Below are positions 795-26,178 of a stretch of 27,858 nucleotides of DNA, piece after piece. A program made the translations under genes and the position numbers. The stretch's first letter is position 1; each line of letters begins with the position of its first letter. Below the pieces are notes generated by a model, which was not told where the DNA came from, did no database searches, and saw only the letters and a program-made list of their open reading frames with translations. Source of the DNA: Actinomycetota bacterium (GTDB lineage Bacteria > Actinomycetota > Acidimicrobiia > IMCC26256 > JACDBD01); the NCBI GenBank assembly GCA_013695115.1, contig JACDBD010000284.1, positions 1 to 27,858 on the forward strand, given 5' to 3'.

Positions 795-1385
795 CTATCG
801 AGCGATTTGGGTGCGCTTGAACTCGTTGAGCCGGTCCCAGGAGAGCAGCTCGAGCATGCGCTCCAGGTCGTCGACCCGGTTGCGGTCCATGAACCGCACG
901 AAGACCGCCTGGTCGTCCTCGCAGAACGTGGGGACACCGAACATTGCCCACCGGTCGACCGCTTCGGTGTGTTCGGCGGCCAGCGTCTTGAGCGGTTGGC
1001 CGCTCGCCACCTCTTCGGCCACCGCGTCCACGTCGAGGCCGGCGGAGGCGGCCACATCGCGCACGACCTGCTCCTTGCCGGTCTTGCGACCGTCGTCGAA
1101 GCGAGCGGCGAACATCGCCACGTGGAAGTCGAAGAACCGATCGTTGAACGCGTCACGGATCGCGAGGCCCCATTCGAGGGAGAGCACGCCCGTGCCCCGC
1201 TCGAGGGGCGGGCGATCCCAGACCGGGGTCTCGCCTTCCTCCGCGTGGGCCTGATCGAGGGAGAAGGCGAGAAAGCGCCAGTCGACCCCGAGCTGGTCGT
1301 TCCTGATGGCGGTGACCACCGCCTCGTGCGCGTTGCGCGCAAACGGTCAGCGATAGTCCCAGCTGACCGTGATCTGGCGAGCCAC
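795..1385 (-). CDS. DsbA-like thioredoxin-fold oxidoreductase, predicted selenoprotein (in-frame TGA at codon 13)
   Basis: Thiol-disulfide-type oxidoreductase of the DsbA superfamily; the physiological substrate is unknown and there is no signal peptide, so it is probably cytoplasmic. Read from the GTG at 1385 it is 196 residues with one in-frame TGA at 1347-1349 (codon 13). The context is S-W-D-Y-R-[TGA]-P-F-A-R-N, and cysteine is the family residue at that point, so TGA is read as selenocysteine (Sec13). The frame stays fully coding on both sides. The cis-Pro loop G-V-P-T-F is at 150-154, followed by Cys155, the only cysteine. The start is supported by GGGAGG at 1391-1396, 5 nt before GTG, and by a TAGCGT -10-like box at 1415-1420. 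A start at 1319 would remove the first strand and the active site. Alternatives are a nonsense mutation or a sequencing error (TGC to TGA), but the SECIS-like hairpin at 1308-1323 argues against them. Confidence 0.82.
1308..1323 (-). promoter_or_regulatory. SECIS-like hairpin downstream of the UGA codon
   Basis: In the mRNA, GGCGGU (1323-1318) pairs perfectly with ACCGCC (1313-1308), leaving the tetraloop GGUC (1317-1314). Its first G lies 29 nt after the UGA. Bacterial SECIS elements lie just downstream of UGA inside the coding region and carry conserved G in a small apical loop; the E. coli fdhF element also shows GGUC in its loop. A second 6-bp hairpin (1341-1327, loop CAA) lies between it and the UGA. 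Binding by SelB is inferred, not shown. Confidence 0.7.
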
Positions 1386-1414
1386 GACGACCTCCCGTTG
1401 GCGAATGCGCCCTC

Positions 1415-10672: not shown

Positions 10673-11923
10673 TCACACTCCGTCGACCGCGACCGGCAGC
10701 CTTTCGAGGCCGCGCAAGGTGAACGTCTCCCGTCGCACCGGGTCGCCCGCGGGCTCGATGTGCGGGAACCGGCGCACGAGTGCGCCGATCGCGATCTGAC
10801 CCTCGAGGCGCGCCAGCGCCGCACCCAGGCAGAAGTGGTGGCCGCCACCGAACGCGAGGTGACGCCCGGCACCCTCCCGTCCCAGGTCGAGCCGGTCGGG
10901 GTCGGGGAAGGCTTCGGGGTCGCGGTTGGCCGCGCCCAGCAGCGGGATGATCTGCTGGTGGGCGGGGATCGTCGTGCCGCCGATCTCGTAGTCCTCCAAC
11001 GTGATCCGCTGGGTCAGCATCACCGGGCTGTCGAACCGCAACATCTCCTCCACCGCGTTGCGGTCGAGCGAGGGGTCGGAACGCAGACGGTCGAGCTGGT
11101 CCGGATGCCGCAGCAACGCGAGCGTCCCGTTGCCGATCAGGTTCACCGTCGTCTCGTGGCCGGCGATCAGCAGGAACAGGGCGGTGGCGAGCAGCTCGGG
11201 CTCGCTCAGGCGATCGCCTTCCTCTTCGGCAGCAATGAGCGCGCTGAGGAGGTCGTCAGCGGGCTCGCGTCGGCGGCGCTCGATGAGCTTCTCCAGATAC
11301 TCGACGAACGCCTCGGCGGCGGCGCGGATCTGCTCCTCCTGCTCGGGTGTTCGCAGGGGTTGCGGGTCGATGCTGGCGGCCAGGTCGTGCGACCACTGCT
11401 GGAAGGTGACGTGGTCGGCGGCGGGCACGCCCAGGAGCTCGCAGATGATCACCACCGGCAGCGGATAGGCGAGGTCGGCGACGACGTCCATTCGGCCGTC
11501 GCCCCGTTCCTCGACCGCGTCGAGCAGTCCGCTCACGAGCTCCTCGATCCGGGCCCGGAGCTGCTCGATGACCCTGGGCGTGAACGCCTTGCTCACCAGG
11601 CCGCGCAGGCGGGAGTGGTCGGGCGGGTCGAGGAAGAGGAGGACGGCCTGGCCCATCTCGTCGCCGAATATGCCGCGCGGCTCGCCGTTCTCCTCGATGA
11701 ACGCCTGGTAGAGGTCGGAATTCTGCTCGTCGTTGCTGAGCCGCGGGTCACGGGTGGCAACCGCGGCGTCGGCGTGGCGGGTCAGCAGGTAGACGCCGAA
11801 CGCGGTCTTGTGGACCGGCTCGTGCTCGCGTAGCAGCCGGAAGAACTGGTACGGGTCGTCCCGAAACTCCGGCGTTATCGCGGCGCTGATGAAGTCGAGA
11901 TCCGCTTCCTGCGACTGCGTCAT
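10673..11923 (-). CDS. Cytochrome P450 (bacterial class I)
   Basis: Haem-thiolate monooxygenase, 416 residues, soluble and dependent on a ferredoxin and reductase not found in this window. The I-helix oxygen-activation motif is A-G-H-E-T-T (254-259), the K-helix E-x-x-R appears in E-E-M-L-R-F, and the haem loop F-G-G-G-H-H-F-C-L-G carries the axial Cys365. The N-terminus F-R-D-D-P-Y-Q-F-F-R-L-L-R and S-K-A-F-T-P-R are typical of actinobacterial CYP107/CYP125-like families; substrate and subfamily cannot be fixed. The ATG at 11923 is preferred; a GTG at 11932 would add three residues. A G-run at 11932-11937 serves as the ribosome-binding site. It lies 70 nt downstream of the carboxylase gene on the same strand. 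Confidence 0.95.
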   Translation of the reverse strand: MTQSQEADLDFISAAITPEFRDDPYQFFRLLREHEPVHKTAFGVYLLTRHADAAVATRDPRLSNDEQNSDLYQAFIEENGEPRGIFGDEMGQAVLLFLDPPDHSRLRGLVSKAFTPRVIEQLRARIEELVSGLLDAVEERGDGRMDVVADLAYPLPVVIICELLGVPAADHVTFQQWSHDLAASIDPQPLRTPEQEEQIRAAAEAFVEYLEKLIERRRREPADDLLSALIAAEEEGDRLSEPELLATALFLLIAGHETTVNLIGNGTLALLRHPDQLDRLRSDPSLDRNAVEEMLRFDSPVMLTQRITLEDYEIGGTTIPAHQQIIPLLGAANRDPEAFPDPDRLDLGREGAGRHLAFGGGHHFCLGAALARLEGQIAIGALVRRFPHIEPAGDPVRRETFTLRGLERLPVAVDGV

Positions 11924-11993
11924 GAGCAGCACCCCCCGCTCGCTTCGTTCACCGTACGGGGGTTGGTCCGGTTCGTCTACGTGACGCGCGGCA

Positions 11994-15942: not shown

Positions 15943-17148
15943 TCAGGCGGTGCGGTACGCGCCCGGGCCGGTGAACATGCCCCGCCGCCAGCGGCGCGGC
16001 GTGAGCAGCAGGGCGCGGGGGTAGTCCTCGTACATCCAGCGGGCGAAGTTGCGGCGGGTCCAGGGCGTGAGGTCGACCGTCCGCAACGCGGCCCGGGCCC
16101 AGAACGCGGAGCCCAGCACGCGTTGCAGACGAGCCGCGAGCCGGAGATCGGCGCCGAGGGTGCGTTCGACGGCCCGCCGGTAGCGAGCGCCGACCGCGGG
16201 CGCGTCGCCACCACCGGCGACCGCGGCACCGGCGGCGATCGCGGTCTCGAACGCCTGGGCGATCCCCTCCCCGGTCATCGGGTCGACGACCGAGGCGGCG
16301 TCACCCGCGAACAGCACGCGACCGTCGGTGAGGCGGGCGGGTTCGAGTTGTGCCGGGATGGGCCACGCCCGCTGCGGATCCTCCGGCTGAGCGTCCGGGC
16401 CCAGCACCGTGCGCAGCCGGTCGCGCTCGAGGAGGTCGAGCCACGTCGCCTTGAGGGTCTTGCCGTCGACCCCGGGCCCGCGGGGGATGCCGAAGCCGAC
16501 GTTGGCGCGCCCACCTGGCAGCGGGAAGACCCAGGCGTAGCCGGGCAGCAGGTCCTCCTCGAACAGCACCCACAGCCTCGGGTCGTCGACCCCGCGGAAG
16601 TACTGACGGAAGGCGTGCCAGCTGCCGAGGTCGGCGGGCGCGTCGGGGTGCAGGAGCCTGCGCACGGCGGAGAAGTGACCGTCAGCGGCGACGACGAACG
16701 GCGCTTCCGCCGCGCGGCCGTCGCTGAGCGTGACGGTCGCGTGGTCGGGACCGACGGACACCTCGTCCACGCCGGTGCCCTCGCGGACGGTCGCGCCGCG
16801 ACGGCGGGCGAGCTCGACGAGGGCGGCGTCGAGATCGGCGCGCGGTACGACACCGGCGTACTGGCCCGTCGGCGGGTGCGGCAGCGAGATCGTCCGTCCA
16901 CTCGGTGAGACGAGCACGGTCTCGCGCACTGTCGCATACGAGGGCAGCGCGTCCAGCTCGAGTCCGAGGTGCTCGAGCGAGCGGAGCGCGCCGGTGGTGA
17001 GCCCGTCACCGCAGGTCTTGTCGCGCGGAAACGTCGCCTTGTCGATCACGAGCACGTCGAGGCCACGATCACGGGCGCTGATCGCGGTCGCCGAGCCCGC
17101 GGGCCCGGCGCCCACAACGACGAGATCGAACCGCTCACGTGCGCACAT
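15943..17148 (-). CDS. Geranylgeranyl reductase-family FAD-dependent oxidoreductase
   Basis: Flavoprotein of 401 residues in the geranylgeranyl reductase / p-hydroxybenzoate hydroxylase-type fold, which reduces double bonds of isoprenoid chains or hydroxylates substrates. The dinucleotide-binding motif is V-V-V-G-A-G-P-A-G-S-A-T-A (9-21). K-T-C-G-D-G-L-T follows, as in geranylgeranyl reductases, then F-V-V-A-A-D-G-H-F-S-A-V-R-R and the second FAD motif L-F-A-G-D-A-A-S-V-V-D-P-M-T-G-E-G-I. In actinobacteria this family often reduces menaquinone side chains (MenJ-type), which is an option here. The ATG at 17148 starts M-C-A-R-E-R-F; TACCGT lies 10 nt upstream. It is divergent from the ABC exporter genes. 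Confidence 0.88.
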   Translation of the reverse strand: MCARERFDLVVVGAGPAGSATAISARDRGLDVLVIDKATFPRDKTCGDGLTTGALRSLEHLGLELDALPSYATVRETVLVSPSGRTISLPHPPTGQYAGVVPRADLDAALVELARRRGATVREGTGVDEVSVGPDHATVTLSDGRAAEAPFVVAADGHFSAVRRLLHPDAPADLGSWHAFRQYFRGVDDPRLWVLFEEDLLPGYAWVFPLPGGRANVGFGIPRGPGVDGKTLKATWLDLLERDRLRTVLGPDAQPEDPQRAWPIPAQLEPARLTDGRVLFAGDAASVVDPMTGEGIAQAFETAIAAGAAVAGGGDAPAVGARYRRAVERTLGADLRLAARLQRVLGSAFWARAALRTVDLTPWTRRNFARWMYEDYPRALLLTPRRWRRGMFTGPGAYRTA

Positions 17149-17178
17149 GTGCTTCCCGACGGTAGTGCGAGCACCTCC

Positions 17179-17184
17179 TAGGCT
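17179..17184 (+). promoter_or_regulatory. -10-like box TAGGCT, leaderless position, ABC transporter operon
   Basis: TAGGCT then 7 nt then the GTG at 17192, in the 43-nt divergent gap. Confidence 0.45.
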
Positions 17185-17191
17185 CCCCTTT

Positions 17192-18115
17192 GTGGCGGTC
17201 ATCGAGGTCGAGGGCTTACGCAAGGAGTACCGCCGCCTGCGTGGCGGGCCCACGCTCGCGCTCGACGGGCTCGACGTCAGCGTGCCCGAGGGTGGAGTGT
17301 TCGGGTTCCTCGGTCCCAACGGTTCGGGCAAGACGACCACCATCCGCTGCCTGCTCGGGCTCGTGCGTGCCAGCAGCGGGCGGAGCCGCCTGCTCGACGC
17401 CGGACCGCGCGAGTTGCACACGGTGATCGGCCGCGTCGGATCGATGGTGGAGACCCCGCAGTTCTTCCCGAACTTCTCCGGGCGTCGCAACCTCGAGCTG
17501 CTGGCGAGGCTCGATGGGATCGGGCGGGCGCGCGTGAACGAGACGCTCGACCTCGTCGGTCTCGGCTCGAGCGCGGGCTCGCCCTTCCGCACCTACTCCC
17601 TGGGGATGAAGCAGCGCCTCGGTCTGGCCGCGGCGTTGATCAAGGATCCCGAGTTGCTGATCCTCGACGAGCCCGCTAACGGGCTCGACCCCGCCGGCAT
17701 CAAGGAGATCCGAGACCTGGTCCGGCGGCTGGGATCGGAGGGTCGGACGATCTTCGTGTCGAGCCACCTGCTCGGCGAGGTGCAACAGATGTGCGACCGG
17801 GTGGCGATCCTCGCGCGCGGCCGCCTGGTGACCGAGGGCCCCGTCGCCGACGTGCTCGCGGGCGGTCGGGCGTCGCGGCTCGTGGTGCAGGTCGCGCCGC
17901 TCGAGGCCGCGCTCGAGACGCTGCGTTCCGCCGATCTCGACGCCACCCTCGACGGCCACCACATCCTGGTGCAGCTCCCGGCTGAGGACGCCGCCCGCGT
18001 GACCGAGGTCCTCGCTGACGCGCGCATGTACGTCAGCGAGCTCCGCCCCGAGGAGATCGACCTCGAGACCGTGTTCCTCGAGCTGACTCGCTCCGACGGG
18101 GATGCGACCGGGTGA
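17192..18115 (+). CDS. ABC transporter ATP-binding protein
   Basis: Nucleotide-binding subunit of an ABC-2-type exporter, 307 residues. Walker A G-P-N-G-S-G-K-T-T, Q-loop E-T-P-Q-F-F, signature S-L-G-M-K-Q-R-L (the variant common in BcrA/antibiotic and drug exporters), Walker B L-L-I-L-D-E-P, D-loop G-L-D-P and H-loop S-S-H-L. A C-terminal regulatory-like extension of about 90 residues follows. The start is GTG. Its stop TGA overlaps the permease GTG (GTGA), so the two are translationally coupled. The substrate is unknown. Confidence 0.94.
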   Translation: MAVIEVEGLRKEYRRLRGGPTLALDGLDVSVPEGGVFGFLGPNGSGKTTTIRCLLGLVRASSGRSRLLDAGPRELHTVIGRVGSMVETPQFFPNFSGRRNLELLARLDGIGRARVNETLDLVGLGSSAGSPFRTYSLGMKQRLGLAAALIKDPELLILDEPANGLDPAGIKEIRDLVRRLGSEGRTIFVSSHLLGEVQQMCDRVAILARGRLVTEGPVADVLAGGRASRLVVQVAPLEAALETLRSADLDATLDGHHILVQLPAEDAARVTEVLADARMYVSELRPEEIDLETVFLELTRSDGDATG

Positions 18116-21452: not shown

Positions 21453-22826
21453 CTACCCGAGTGTGTCGTCGGCGGCCCACCAGCCGTGGAAGCCGTAGGG
21501 CACGCGCTGGGGCAGGTGCACCCGCGCGACCTCCGGTCCGGTGAAGTCGGTGGCGTCGAGGATCACCAGGTCGCTGGCGTCGCGGTCAGTGTCGTGCACC
21601 AGCGACAGCACGAACCCCTCGTCCTCACCCGCGTCGAGCGACCCGGGGACGAACACGGCCTCGCCCGCCGACTGACCCGCGCCGAAGGTGCGCTCGACGG
21701 TCGTGCCCGCGTGGAGGTCATGCTTGAGCAGCCCGCCGAATTGCACCCCGCCGCCGTCGCCGAGCGAGAAGCTCGGCGCGTACCCGTAGCGGTATGATCG
21801 ACCGACGAGGCGCTCGTCGACCCGCGGCAACTCCTGGGGATGGTCGTCCAGGCGTTCCTCGATGACCTTCCCGCCGTTGGATGCGTCGATCGTCCAGCGG
21901 TCGAGCGTCGGCAACGCGTCGCCGGGGCCGTACCGGTCGTCGGCGAACATCGTCTGGTGGCGCACAACGTCAACCGCGACCCGCCCGTCCTCGGTGTCGT
22001 AGGCGTTGAGCGGGTGGTAGACGTAGCAGAGCTCGACGTCGAGCCACTTCACGTCGGTATTGCCGCCGTCGCGGGGCATGACGCCGACCCGGGCGCCGTA
22101 GTCAGGCCGCCATTCGAACGGGAACGGCTGTTTGCCCACCAGCTCGAGGTCGAACACGACCGGCAGGTCGAAGAACACGACGTTGCGCTCGGTGATGGCG
22201 AAGTCGTGCACCATGGAGGGGCCCTGAATGTCGATGTCCTCGCTGCGCGTCAGCGTCCCGTCACGGTCGACGACGTGGTAGCGCAGGAACGGCGGCCCCG
22301 TGATGTCGTAGCCGAAGAACAGCATCTCGCCCGTAACCGGGTCGATCTTCGGGTGCGCGGTCATCGACGAGCGCAGCTTGCCGCCGAAGTCGTAGCGCCC
22401 GACGGTCGAGAGGTCGGGCCGCACCTCGGTGGGCAGGCACACCTCGACCAAGGCCAGGATCTTGCCGGCGTGGGCGACGACATGGGTGTTGGCGACGCTC
22501 GAGCCCCCGATGAACACGTCGTCGGGCTGCCCCGGGACCGGGTCCTCGCCCAGCGCCTCCGCTGCCCGGTCGGTGCGGACCCAGCGGTTGCGGTACGAGA
22601 CCGCCTCGCCGTCGCGCAGCTCGATCGCGTGGAGCATCCCGTCGCCGGTGAACCAGTGGTACATCGCCGGGTCGGGGTCGACGATCGGGTCGGGCCCGTT
22701 GCGCAGGTAGCGCCCCGCGAGCGCGGGTGGGACCGAGCCGGTCACGGGGAGGTCGGTGGCGGTGGCCTCGTCCCGGACCGGGGCGAAGTTGCCGGCGAGG
22801 TAGGCGTTCTCGGTGGCGGTGCTCAT
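21453..22826 (-). CDS. Carotenoid cleavage oxygenase (RPE65/lignostilbene dioxygenase family)
   Basis: Non-haem iron(II) dioxygenase that cleaves conjugated double bonds in carotenoids, apocarotenoids or stilbenes; 457 residues, normal length. The four iron-binding histidines are readable: His158 (T-A-H-P-K), His207 (M-V-H-D-F), His271 (V-Y-H-P-L-N) and His447 (G-F-H-G-W-W). G-R-Y-L-R-N-G-P-D and the H-W-F-T-G-D-G-M-L-H segment near the N-terminus are family marks. Its ATG at 22826 overlaps the TetR stop (ATGA), so it is translationally coupled to that regulator and probably under its control. Substrate choice cannot be decided; no carotenoid biosynthesis gene adjoins. Confidence 0.95.
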   Translation of the reverse strand: MSTATENAYLAGNFAPVRDEATATDLPVTGSVPPALAGRYLRNGPDPIVDPDPAMYHWFTGDGMLHAIELRDGEAVSYRNRWVRTDRAAEALGEDPVPGQPDDVFIGGSSVANTHVVAHAGKILALVEVCLPTEVRPDLSTVGRYDFGGKLRSSMTAHPKIDPVTGEMLFFGYDITGPPFLRYHVVDRDGTLTRSEDIDIQGPSMVHDFAITERNVVFFDLPVVFDLELVGKQPFPFEWRPDYGARVGVMPRDGGNTDVKWLDVELCYVYHPLNAYDTEDGRVAVDVVRHQTMFADDRYGPGDALPTLDRWTIDASNGGKVIEERLDDHPQELPRVDERLVGRSYRYGYAPSFSLGDGGGVQFGGLLKHDLHAGTTVERTFGAGQSAGEAVFVPGSLDAGEDEGFVLSLVHDTDRDASDLVILDATDFTGPEVARVHLPQRVPYGFHGWWAADDTLG

Positions 22827-23473
22827 GGTTGGGCCTGCTTTCTTTGGTCGGGGCGGCCGAGGCCGTACGTCATGGATTCGCACACGTGGTCGACGAGAGT
22901 GTCGACGTCGGGCCACGGGAACTCGGGCAGGGAGATCAGCAGCGATGTCATGCCGTGCGCGGCTGCCCACAGACCGGTGGCGACGAGGAAAGGCTCGAGC
23001 CCGGGACGAAGCAGGCCGGCGCCGATGGCGCGCTCGACCGCCTCGACGAGGTGCAGGAAGGCCAGGCTGCCGGGCATGTTCGAGAGGTCGATGGGGTCGG
23101 CAACGCCGGCCGCCTTGCCCATGAAGAGGATGCGGTACTGCTCGGGGTTGTCCAGCCCGAACTGGACGTAGGCGCGCGCCCGTCGGCGCAGCGACTCGAC
23201 CGGGTCGTCGGTGGTGTTGCCGGCCCGTTCCACGACCTCGTCGAAGGCGGCGAAGCTCCGCTCGCAGACCGCCCGGATGAGCGCCTCCTTGTCGGCGTAG
23301 TGGAGGTAGATCGACGGGGGAGTAACACCCACCGCGTCGGCAATGGCGCGCATCGAGACCGCGTCGGCGTCGCGCGCCTCGATGAGCAGGCGCTCGGCGG
23401 TATCGAGGATGACCTCGCGCAGCTTCGAGCCCTCGCCGCGGCGGGCCCTGGTGCGGGGGCGGACGGCCGTCAC
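22823..23473 (-). CDS. TetR/AcrR-family transcriptional regulator
   Basis: Dimeric one-component repressor, 216 residues. The N-terminal helix-turn-helix is typical: I-L-D-T-A-E-R-L-L, A-V-S-M-R-A-I-A-D-A-V-G-V-T-P-P-S-I-Y-L, then H-Y-A-D-K-E-A-L. The ligand-binding domain includes R-A-R-A-Y-V-Q-F-G-L-D-N-P-E-Q-Y-R-I-L-F, as in TetR proteins of the WHG/C-terminal type. GTG start at 23473 overlaps the stop of the upstream MMPL-like stub (GTGA), and its stop overlaps the carotenoid oxygenase ATG. The likely ligand and the regulated genes are unknown; the direct-repeat site at 23624-23644 is a candidate operator for autoregulation. Confidence 0.93.
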   Translation of the reverse strand: MTAVRPRTRARRGEGSKLREVILDTAERLLIEARDADAVSMRAIADAVGVTPPSIYLHYADKEALIRAVCERSFAAFDEVVERAGNTTDDPVESLRRRARAYVQFGLDNPEQYRILFMGKAAGVADPIDLSNMPGSLAFLHLVEAVERAIGAGLLRPGLEPFLVATGLWAAAHGMTSLLISLPEFPWPDVDTLVDHVCESMTYGLGRPDQRKQAQP

Positions 23474-23610
23474 GGCGCCCCCACGTCTTCGAGGACACGC
23501 CGGTCACTCACGCCCGACCCGAAGACCGCCGCCGCGATCAGGAACAGCGCCGTGCCGGCGAGGACGAGCTTCCGGCGGCGGACGGTGAACCGGCCGAGGC
23601 GTGAGAGCAC
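23470..23610 (-). pseudogene. MMPL/RND transporter N-terminal stub
   Basis: A 46-codon ORF from GTG at 23610 reads M-L-S-R-L-G-R-F-T-V-R-R-R-K-L-V-L-A-G-T, then A-L-F-L-I-A-A-A-V-F-G-S-G-V-S-D-R and nine more residues to a TGA. The first 36 residues look like the start of an MMPL-type lipid exporter (basic R-R-R before the first membrane helix, then G-S-G-V-S-D-R), whose full length is near 700-900. It ends where the large periplasmic domain would begin. AGGGG lies 8 nt before the GTG. It is coupled by GTGA to the TetR gene, so it may now serve as a leader peptide or small membrane protein rather than be silent. Confidence 0.5.
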
Positions 23611-24334: not shown

Positions 24335-25183
24335 ATGGAACAGCTGGAGGGCAAGGTCGCGGTCGTCACCGGCGGCGCGAGCGGGATCGGGCGCGCCCTG
24401 GCTGAGCGGTTCGCGGCCGAGGGCATGAAGCTCGTGCTCGCCGACGTCGAGGAAGGCGCGCTCGCGGCCACGGCGAAGGAGCTGGCCGACGGCGGCGCGG
24501 ACACGCGCGGGGTCGTCACCGACGTCGCCGACAGGGGCTCGGTCGACGCGCTCGCGACGCGCACGCTCGAGGAGTTCGGCGCGGTCCACGTCGTGTGCAA
24601 CAACGCCGGCGTCGGTGGTCTCGGCCACCCGACCTGGGACGGCCCGCTGAGCGCGTGGGAGTGGGTCCTGGGCGTGAATCTCTGGGGCGTGATCCACGGG
24701 ATTCGGGCGTTCGTGCCCGCCCTTGTCGAGCAGGACGAGGGCCATGTGGTCAACACCGCGTCGATGGCGGGGCTGGCGGCGATGCCCTTCATGGGTCCGT
24801 ACACCACGACCAAGCACGCGGTGGTCGGGCTCTCCGAGGTGCTGTTCCACGAGCTCGGGGTGCGGGGGTCGGCGGTCGGGGTCTCGGTGCTGTGCCCGAA
24901 CTTCCTCCGGACCAACATCTTCGACTCCGATCGCAACTGGCCCAGCCGGCTGGGCGAGTCGCCCGGGCGTCCCGACGAGCCCGGGGCGCAGTTCATCTTC
25001 GACGCCGGTCAGGCCCTGCTCGAGTCGAGCCCCAACCCGTCGATGCTCGCCGAGGCCACCGTGGACGCGATCCGCGGGCGGCGGTTCGTGGTGCTCAGCG
25101 ACTCGGACGCGGCCGCGCAGGCGATGGCGACGCGTCGCGACGTCGTCGTGGATGGCGTGGCGCCGACGCTCGGTTTCGGATGA
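24335..25183 (+). CDS. Short-chain dehydrogenase/reductase (SDR)
   Basis: Classical NAD(P)-dependent SDR of 282 residues. Glycine motif G-G-A-S-G-I-G (13-19), acidic D-V-E after the second strand (favours NAD), N-N-A-G, catalytic serine in N-T-A-S-M-A-G and Y-T-T-T-K (Tyr156, Lys160). The ATG is preceded by GGGAGG with 6 nt spacing. Its TGA overlaps the next ATG (ATGA), so it is coupled to the Gfo/Idh/MocA gene. Substrate unknown. Confidence 0.92.
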   Translation: MEQLEGKVAVVTGGASGIGRALAERFAAEGMKLVLADVEEGALAATAKELADGGADTRGVVTDVADRGSVDALATRTLEEFGAVHVVCNNAGVGGLGHPTWDGPLSAWEWVLGVNLWGVIHGIRAFVPALVEQDEGHVVNTASMAGLAAMPFMGPYTTTKHAVVGLSEVLFHELGVRGSAVGVSVLCPNFLRTNIFDSDRNWPSRLGESPGRPDEPGAQFIFDAGQALLESSPNPSMLAEATVDAIRGRRFVVLSDSDAAAQAMATRRDVVVDGVAPTLGFG

Positions 25184-26178
25184 GCGAGCGGCCGCTGCGC
25201 ATCGGGACACTCGGCGCGGCTCGGATCGCCCCGGCCGCCATTGTCAAGCCGGCACGCGACGTCGACGACGCCGAGCTGTTCGCGGTCGCCGCCCGCGACC
25301 CGGCCAAGGCGGCGAAGTTCGCCCGCAAGCACGGTGTTCCACGCGTCCACGACACCTACGACGCGCTGCTCGCCGACGACGAGATCGACGCGGTGTACAA
25401 CCCGCTGCCGAACGGTTTGCACGGTGTGTGGACGCTGCGGGCGATCGCCGCCGGCAAGCCCGTGCTGTGCGAGAAGCCCCTCACCGCCAACGCGGCCGAG
25501 GCCGAGCAGGTAGCCGCGGCCGCCGAGGAGGCTGGCCTCGTGGTGATGGAGGCGTTCCACTACCGCTACCACCCGCTGGCGGCGCGCATGAAGGAGATCG
25601 TCGACTCGGGCGAGCTCGGCTCCGTGCGTCGCCTCGAGTCGTGGATGTGCATCCCGCTCCCGTTGTTCAAGGACATCCGTTACCGGCTCGACCTCGCCGG
25701 CGGCGCGGTGATGGACGTCGGCTGTTATGGAATCCACCAGCTGCGGGTCCTTGCCGGCGCCGAGCCCACTGTGACCGCCGCCCGCGCCCGGCTGCGGTCC
25801 CCGCAGGTGGACCGGTGGATGCAGGCCGATTTCGAGTGGGCCGACGGCCGAACCGGTCAGATGACCTGCGCGCTGTGGTCGGCCTCTCTGCTCAAGGTGG
25901 CCGTCCGGGTGACCGGCGCGGAGGGCGAGATGCGCGTGCTCAATCCGGCGCGACCCCAGTCGTTCCACCGCCTGACGGTGCGCACGAAGGCGGGGAAGCG
26001 CCGCGAGCGCGTCAAGGGCGACGCGACGTACACGTACCAGCTGCGGGCGTTCGTCGCCGCCGCCCGTGACGGCGCGCCGGTCCTGACCCCGCTGTCCGAC
26101 TCGGTGGCCAACATGCGCGTCATCGACGATGTCTACCGGAAGGCGGGCCTCGAGCCGCGCTCGCCCTCCGCGGCCTGA
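25180..26178 (+). CDS. Gfo/Idh/MocA-family oxidoreductase
   Basis: NAD(P)-dependent oxidoreductase of the glucose-fructose oxidoreductase / inositol dehydrogenase family, 332 residues. Rossmann start R-I-G-T-L-G-A-A-R-I-A; D-A-V-Y-N-P-L-P-N-G-L-H; the C-E-K-P-L motif with Lys99; E-A-F-H-Y-R-Y-H-P-L; and G-G-A-V-M-D-V-G-C-Y-G-I-H-Q-L-R, the region with the catalytic Asp and His. The F-H-Y-R-H-P pattern resembles dihydrodiol/D-xylose dehydrogenases. It is co-transcribed with the SDR, consistent with oxidation or epimerisation of a polyol or sugar-like substrate, which is inference. Confidence 0.92.
   Translation: MSERPLRIGTLGAARIAPAAIVKPARDVDDAELFAVAARDPAKAAKFARKHGVPRVHDTYDALLADDEIDAVYNPLPNGLHGVWTLRAIAAGKPVLCEKPLTANAAEAEQVAAAAEEAGLVVMEAFHYRYHPLAARMKEIVDSGELGSVRRLESWMCIPLPLFKDIRYRLDLAGGAVMDVGCYGIHQLRVLAGAEPTVTAARARLRSPQVDRWMQADFEWADGRTGQMTCALWSASLLKVAVRVTGAEGEMRVLNPARPQSFHRLTVRTKAGKRRERVKGDATYTYQLRAFVAAARDGAPVLTPLSDSVANMRVIDDVYRKAGLEPRSPSAA

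Follow-up and report, generated by a model that had tools for sequence, protein, structure and literature searches.

The window analysed here is a 27,858-nt stretch of DNA, equal to contig C389 in a draft Actinomycetota genome of 2.65 Mb (454 contigs, 87.9% complete), and it carries on the minus strand a frame that is open throughout apart from a single TGA at codon 13 (Table 1). A search of the draft genome found this gene once. A PAP2-family gene (1418–2659, minus) ends 32 bases ahead of its GTG. Downstream lies a WS/DGAT gene, also on the minus strand, which starts at 666 and runs off the window; these neighbours provide no clear hint of function. We also noted a short, almost perfect inverted repeat (GCGGCAGG-TACC-CTGCCGCC, 701–720, minus) between the predicted selenoprotein gene and the WS/DGAT gene which, given that no T run follows it, is not a typical terminator. 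Elsewhere in the window, an RPE65-type carotenoid oxygenase domain (21456–23507, minus; E 7e-129) does not start until residue 241 of its 684-codon frame, which makes it probable that translation truly begins within the listed ORF.

Table 1. Coordinates of the predicted selenoprotein gene, its elements, and the TGA-ended frames with a Pfam domain in the window.
Feature	Position	Strand	Basis
Predicted DsbA-like selenoprotein CDS, 196 residues, GTG start, TAG stop	795..1385	-	Frame; Pfam DSBA; homologues equally long
Start codon GTG	1385-1383	-	Sequence
Stop codon TAG	797-795	-	Sequence
In-frame TGA, codon 13, predicted Sec	1347..1349	-	Cys in 106/107 full-length listed relatives
GGGAGG, likely ribosome-binding site, 5 bases ahead of GTG	1391..1396	-	Sequence
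SECIS-like hairpin GGCGGU-GGUC-ACCGCC	1308..1323	-	Modest significance vs. synonymous recoding
Table-11 ORF, shortened form, 174 aa, GTG start, without active-site residue	795..1319	-	ORF list; 13 listed relatives of the same length
Cys155 codon TGC, in VPTFC, 3 residues past predicted cis-proline; candidate resolving residue	921..923	-	
TGA-ended frame, P450 domain	10673-11932		
TGA-ended frame, FAD-binding domain	15943-17592		
TGA-ended frame, GFO/IDH domain	24595-26178		

An earlier, sequence-only reading of this DNA had placed the TGA at codon 13 of a frame otherwise unbroken from the GTG with its GGGAGG to the TAG, and our inspection agrees with it on both points, as the TGA is present at that codon and no second stop occurs. 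It had also anticipated that a gene caller would start past the TGA and drop the active site, which is indeed what is seen in the table-11 ORF, where the first 22 residues of the full frame are missing. The TGA could be taken as a real stop, in which case the locus would be a pseudogene or only the 174-residue protein would be made, given that table-11 gene callers yield exactly this form and that 13 listed database entries have it. However, the 12 codons ahead of the TGA match the family (VARQITVSWDYR vs. MAREIAVTWDYR), the remaining frame has no further stop, and 83–90% identity is kept past the TGA in the 13 listed related clusters. In the shortened form, the predicted thioredoxin fold would moreover be missing its strand 1 as well as the active-site residue, and we therefore consider a genuine stop at codon 13 very unlikely.

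The database search returned 5170 hits, of which 120 are listed (107 full-length and 13 of 174 aa). Whether Cys aligns at codon 13 had been proposed as a check, and among the full-length listed relatives it does so in 106 of 107, within the motif DY.CPFA, with the remaining one lacking the motif; in 100 of the 107, Cys13 is the sole Cys. The 13 listed relatives of 174 aa are 83–90% identical to the window protein and begin at an internal start past the TGA, from which we infer that they too carry TGA at codon 13. Cys155 is present in all 13 of these shortened proteins and in 2 of the 107 full-length ones listed.

Searches across the class gave a match in 150 of 395 genomes, and across the order in 41 of 58 (44 match rows). 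An in-frame stop occurs in only three of the 44 order rows (the window and genomes G186 and G029), each time as one TGA at the codon that encodes Cys in the relatives, a placement not put down to chance, and genomes of the same genus have Cys there (G183 and G025 for G186; G045 for G029). Scanning the species-genome collection for the pattern retrieved nine stretches, comprising the G029 and G186 genes, five loci from SAR202 Chloroflexota (L059, L061, L062, L063, and L064), and two chance matches (L056 and L060) whose frames are full of stops. TGA homologues at the same codon, whose absence together with that of Cys homologues would have counted against the sequence-only reading, are thus found in two further genomes of the order and at the five SAR202 loci, where the surrounding residues read HDYIUPFAYN. 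Four of the SAR202 proteins are 23–25% identical to the window protein, while the fifth (L063) is cut off by the end of its stretch. These five loci are distant homologues and make up a separate predicted selenoprotein group sharing one hairpin after the TGA. The plasmid and phage collections contained no match at E 1e-5.

This distribution also bears on sequencing or assembly error, by which the true codon would be TGC or TGT and the product an ordinary Cys protein. The sequence of the window is that of a draft metagenomic contig, and a single base is enough to convert Cys to TGA; however, this codon is TGA in other genomes too, on different contigs, 13 close listed relatives are shortened at the same place, and the only stops among the 44 order rows fall at codon 13. 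Such an error appears extremely improbable.

The genome itself encodes the machinery for selenocysteine incorporation. We identified a tRNA-Sec with anticodon UCA (66.2 bits; cut-off 47), the UCA tRNA also being called as tRNA-Sec by ARAGORN, together with selA on contig C371 (471 bits; cut-off 267.9), an adjoining selB (329.9 bits for the joined frame; cut-off 242.25), and selD on contig C274 (402 bits; cut-off 125), so that all four components, whose absence would have spoken against selenocysteine, exceed their curated cut-offs. A suppressor or an altered code could instead have UGA read as another amino acid, and the frame would be open under any such reading. Yet TGA closes 7 of the 18 window frames for which the stop was read, three of these with a Pfam domain, indicating that UGA is not reassigned throughout and that the code is unchanged; the UCA tRNA is a tRNA-Sec in a genome with the Sec genes, and the residue in the relatives is Cys, the usual counterpart of Sec. 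We find this explanation hardly credible, and conclude, with a probability of roughly 0.9, that frame 1385–795 encodes a DsbA-like selenoprotein in which UGA is read as Sec via the genome's own tRNA-Sec, selA, selB, and selD. Selenium insertion at codon 13 would accord with the codon, the homology, and the genes observed.

A second selenoprotein was found neither in a formate dehydrogenase search of the genome nor in the three stretches around selA/selB, selD, and tRNA-Sec, a small scope. The formate dehydrogenase model gave four matches, all below cut-off and without stops, and in the three stretches TGA lies inside 6 of the 14 frames passing a length and composition filter; in the three of those six that were scanned, each Pfam domain lies wholly on one side of the TGA.

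Across the genomes compared, selA exceeded its cut-off in 42 of 63 (38 of 58 in the order and four of five in SAR202), and on this basis selenocysteine use looks common in the order. The tRNA-Sec exceeded its cut-off in 12 of 21 genomes, including G000, G186, G029, and four of the five SAR202 genomes. Two genomes count against the Sec reading: G186 (79% complete) gave no selA match, though it has the TGA gene and tRNA-Sec, and the SAR202 genome G398 has neither a full selA nor a tRNA-Sec over cut-off. Both selA and tRNA-Sec also occur in genomes with the Cys form (G183, G025, and G045 among them), indicating that Sec-capable genomes carry either form.

A hairpin follows the TGA, as the sequence-only reading had noted. 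The published bacterial SECIS model describes a G at loop position 1 or 2 and a loop 16–37 nt past the UGA (PMC13188914), and the hairpin in the window, with its loop starting 29 nt after the UGA, fits this description. The gene in G186 (L028) has GGCCGU-GGUC-ACGGCC at the same place, with one pair altered on both sides via synonymous codons, while that in G029 (L051) pairs only three of the six positions by Watson–Crick rules and so lacks the shared hairpin. None of the 31 Cys homologues has six Watson–Crick pairs there (best 5), although two of them (L027 and L054) pair all six positions if G–U is counted, and a more stable hairpin occurs in range in 4 of the 31. On its own, however, the hairpin carries modest weight: upon synonymous recoding, an equally good hairpin arose in 338 of 5000 sequences for the window, 325 of 5000 for L028, and 2178 of 5000 for L051, and one as good in the fixed place in 842 of 5000 (window) and 839 of 5000 (L028). 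An Rfam search of positions 700–1500 gave one chance match (15.2 bits; cut-off 65.3).

All five SAR202 genes have CAGCC-GUGU-GGCUG with the loop at 21 nt, and in the four tested, 261, 218, 87, and 262 of 5000 recodings were as good. Across these four genes, the third position varies in 1 of 8 hairpin codons vs. 93 of 181 codons further on (Fisher p 0.065), and in 2 of the 12 codons that come directly after the UGA (p 0.033). The window and SAR202 hairpins both fit the published model, and we treat them as supporting evidence only.

PF01323 (Pfam DSBA) matches residues 90–178 of the product (E 7.9e-13, 49 bits; cut-off 25.6), with the active-site strand outside the match, while neither this protein nor four relatives matched NCBIfam at E values up to 0.01. 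The DsbA-like assignment of the sequence-only reading is borne out by the Pfam match, but the protein is of a single-Cys type (U-P-F-A) and is no CXXC DsbA: the CXXC/UXXC pair of classical DsbA and FrnE is absent, and C-P-F-A stands at this place in 106 of the 107 full-length listed relatives. Structures of FrnE, Rv2466c, and kappa-class glutathione transferase are among the closest known systems. Rv2466c has a CXXC pair, unlike the window protein. A CXXC pair with no equivalent in the window protein is also described in FrnE (PMC8945050). The DR2335 protein of Deinococcus radiodurans (PDB 7dk9 and 7dka), a single-Cys DsbA-like protein, was the first match by both profile and fold; it is the closest fold at ~21% identity, with Cys where the window protein has Sec. 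In the account given in PMC8945050, no function is reported for this solved Cys relative.

DsbA-like selenoproteins have been described before. The main text of Peng et al. noted 45 of them in 41 organisms (PMC5029168), and Table 1 of PMC13188914 lists a 'DsbA-like protein form 2' (PF01323, motif DxxUP, MDP6049977.1), credited there to Peng et al. 2016. The window protein shares both the Pfam family and the motif (D10-Y-R-U13-P14), and the SAR202 D-Y-I-U-P likewise fits the motif. Matched by motif and Pfam description only, the window family is likely this catalogued DxxUP family. The additional label given to form 2 in that table, crotonase/enoyl-CoA hydratase family protein, is unsuited to the window protein. 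The 'DsbA-like protein form 1' listed in PMC13188914 (motif UxxC) and the Sargasso and GOS selenoproteins, including GOS DsbA 1–3 (UxxC and UxxV; PMC1088965, PMC2398784), also have a DsbA domain in which Sec occupies the first position of the active site; however, the window motif is UxxA (U-P-F-A), without a second Cys. Given that DsbA-like selenoproteins, including DxxUP, are already catalogued (PMC13188914), the gene is less new than the sequence-only reading implied. In the open-licence main texts searched, we found no description of a Sec form of the single-Cys DsbA-like type. The points of interest are the single-residue U-P-F-A site, the association with Cys155, and the occurrence of Cys and Sec forms scattered through a single order.

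The scatter is apparent in a tree of 156 proteins, from which the short or incomplete L052, L054, and L063 were left out. A single clade (100/98) unites the window protein with the 13 shortened rows, and it is nested in a larger set of 41 rows (96/87), 27 of which are Cys proteins. The G186 protein (L028) groups with the Cys proteins L044 and L045 (100/97), and the G029 protein (L051) stands apart, its nearest Cys kin (L054) being one of the three omitted proteins. Within the order, Sec forms are thus interspersed with Cys forms, implying repeated gain or repeated loss, and the tree fits both.

A possible course of synthesis and catalysis can be outlined from these features. The hairpin 3′ of the UGA is predicted to recruit SelB and Sec-tRNA, and the product would be a cytoplasmic thioredoxin-fold protein with Sec13 immediately ahead of the first helix. 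Sec13 may then attack its substrate, either a disulfide or a mixed disulfide. Because a CXXC partner is absent, resolution of the resulting selenium intermediate would fall to a low-molecular-weight thiol, for which mycothiol is one possibility, or in the window clade to Cys155. Going further, the window clade might have acquired a new redox pair, in which Sec13 and Cys155 by the cis-proline loop form a cross-strand selenenylsulfide, within a family that would have changed repeatedly from one of Cys and Sec to the other in one actinobacterial order; we offer this combined proposal tentatively and regard it as rather doubtful.

Given that gene callers start past the UGA, database copies of such genes are likely to lack the active site, and the 13 listed clusters of one clade have the shortened form that likely misses it. 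The presence of Cys and Sec neighbours within single genera offers a way to test what selenium adds, and its contribution could be tested here at a single-residue DsbA-like centre.
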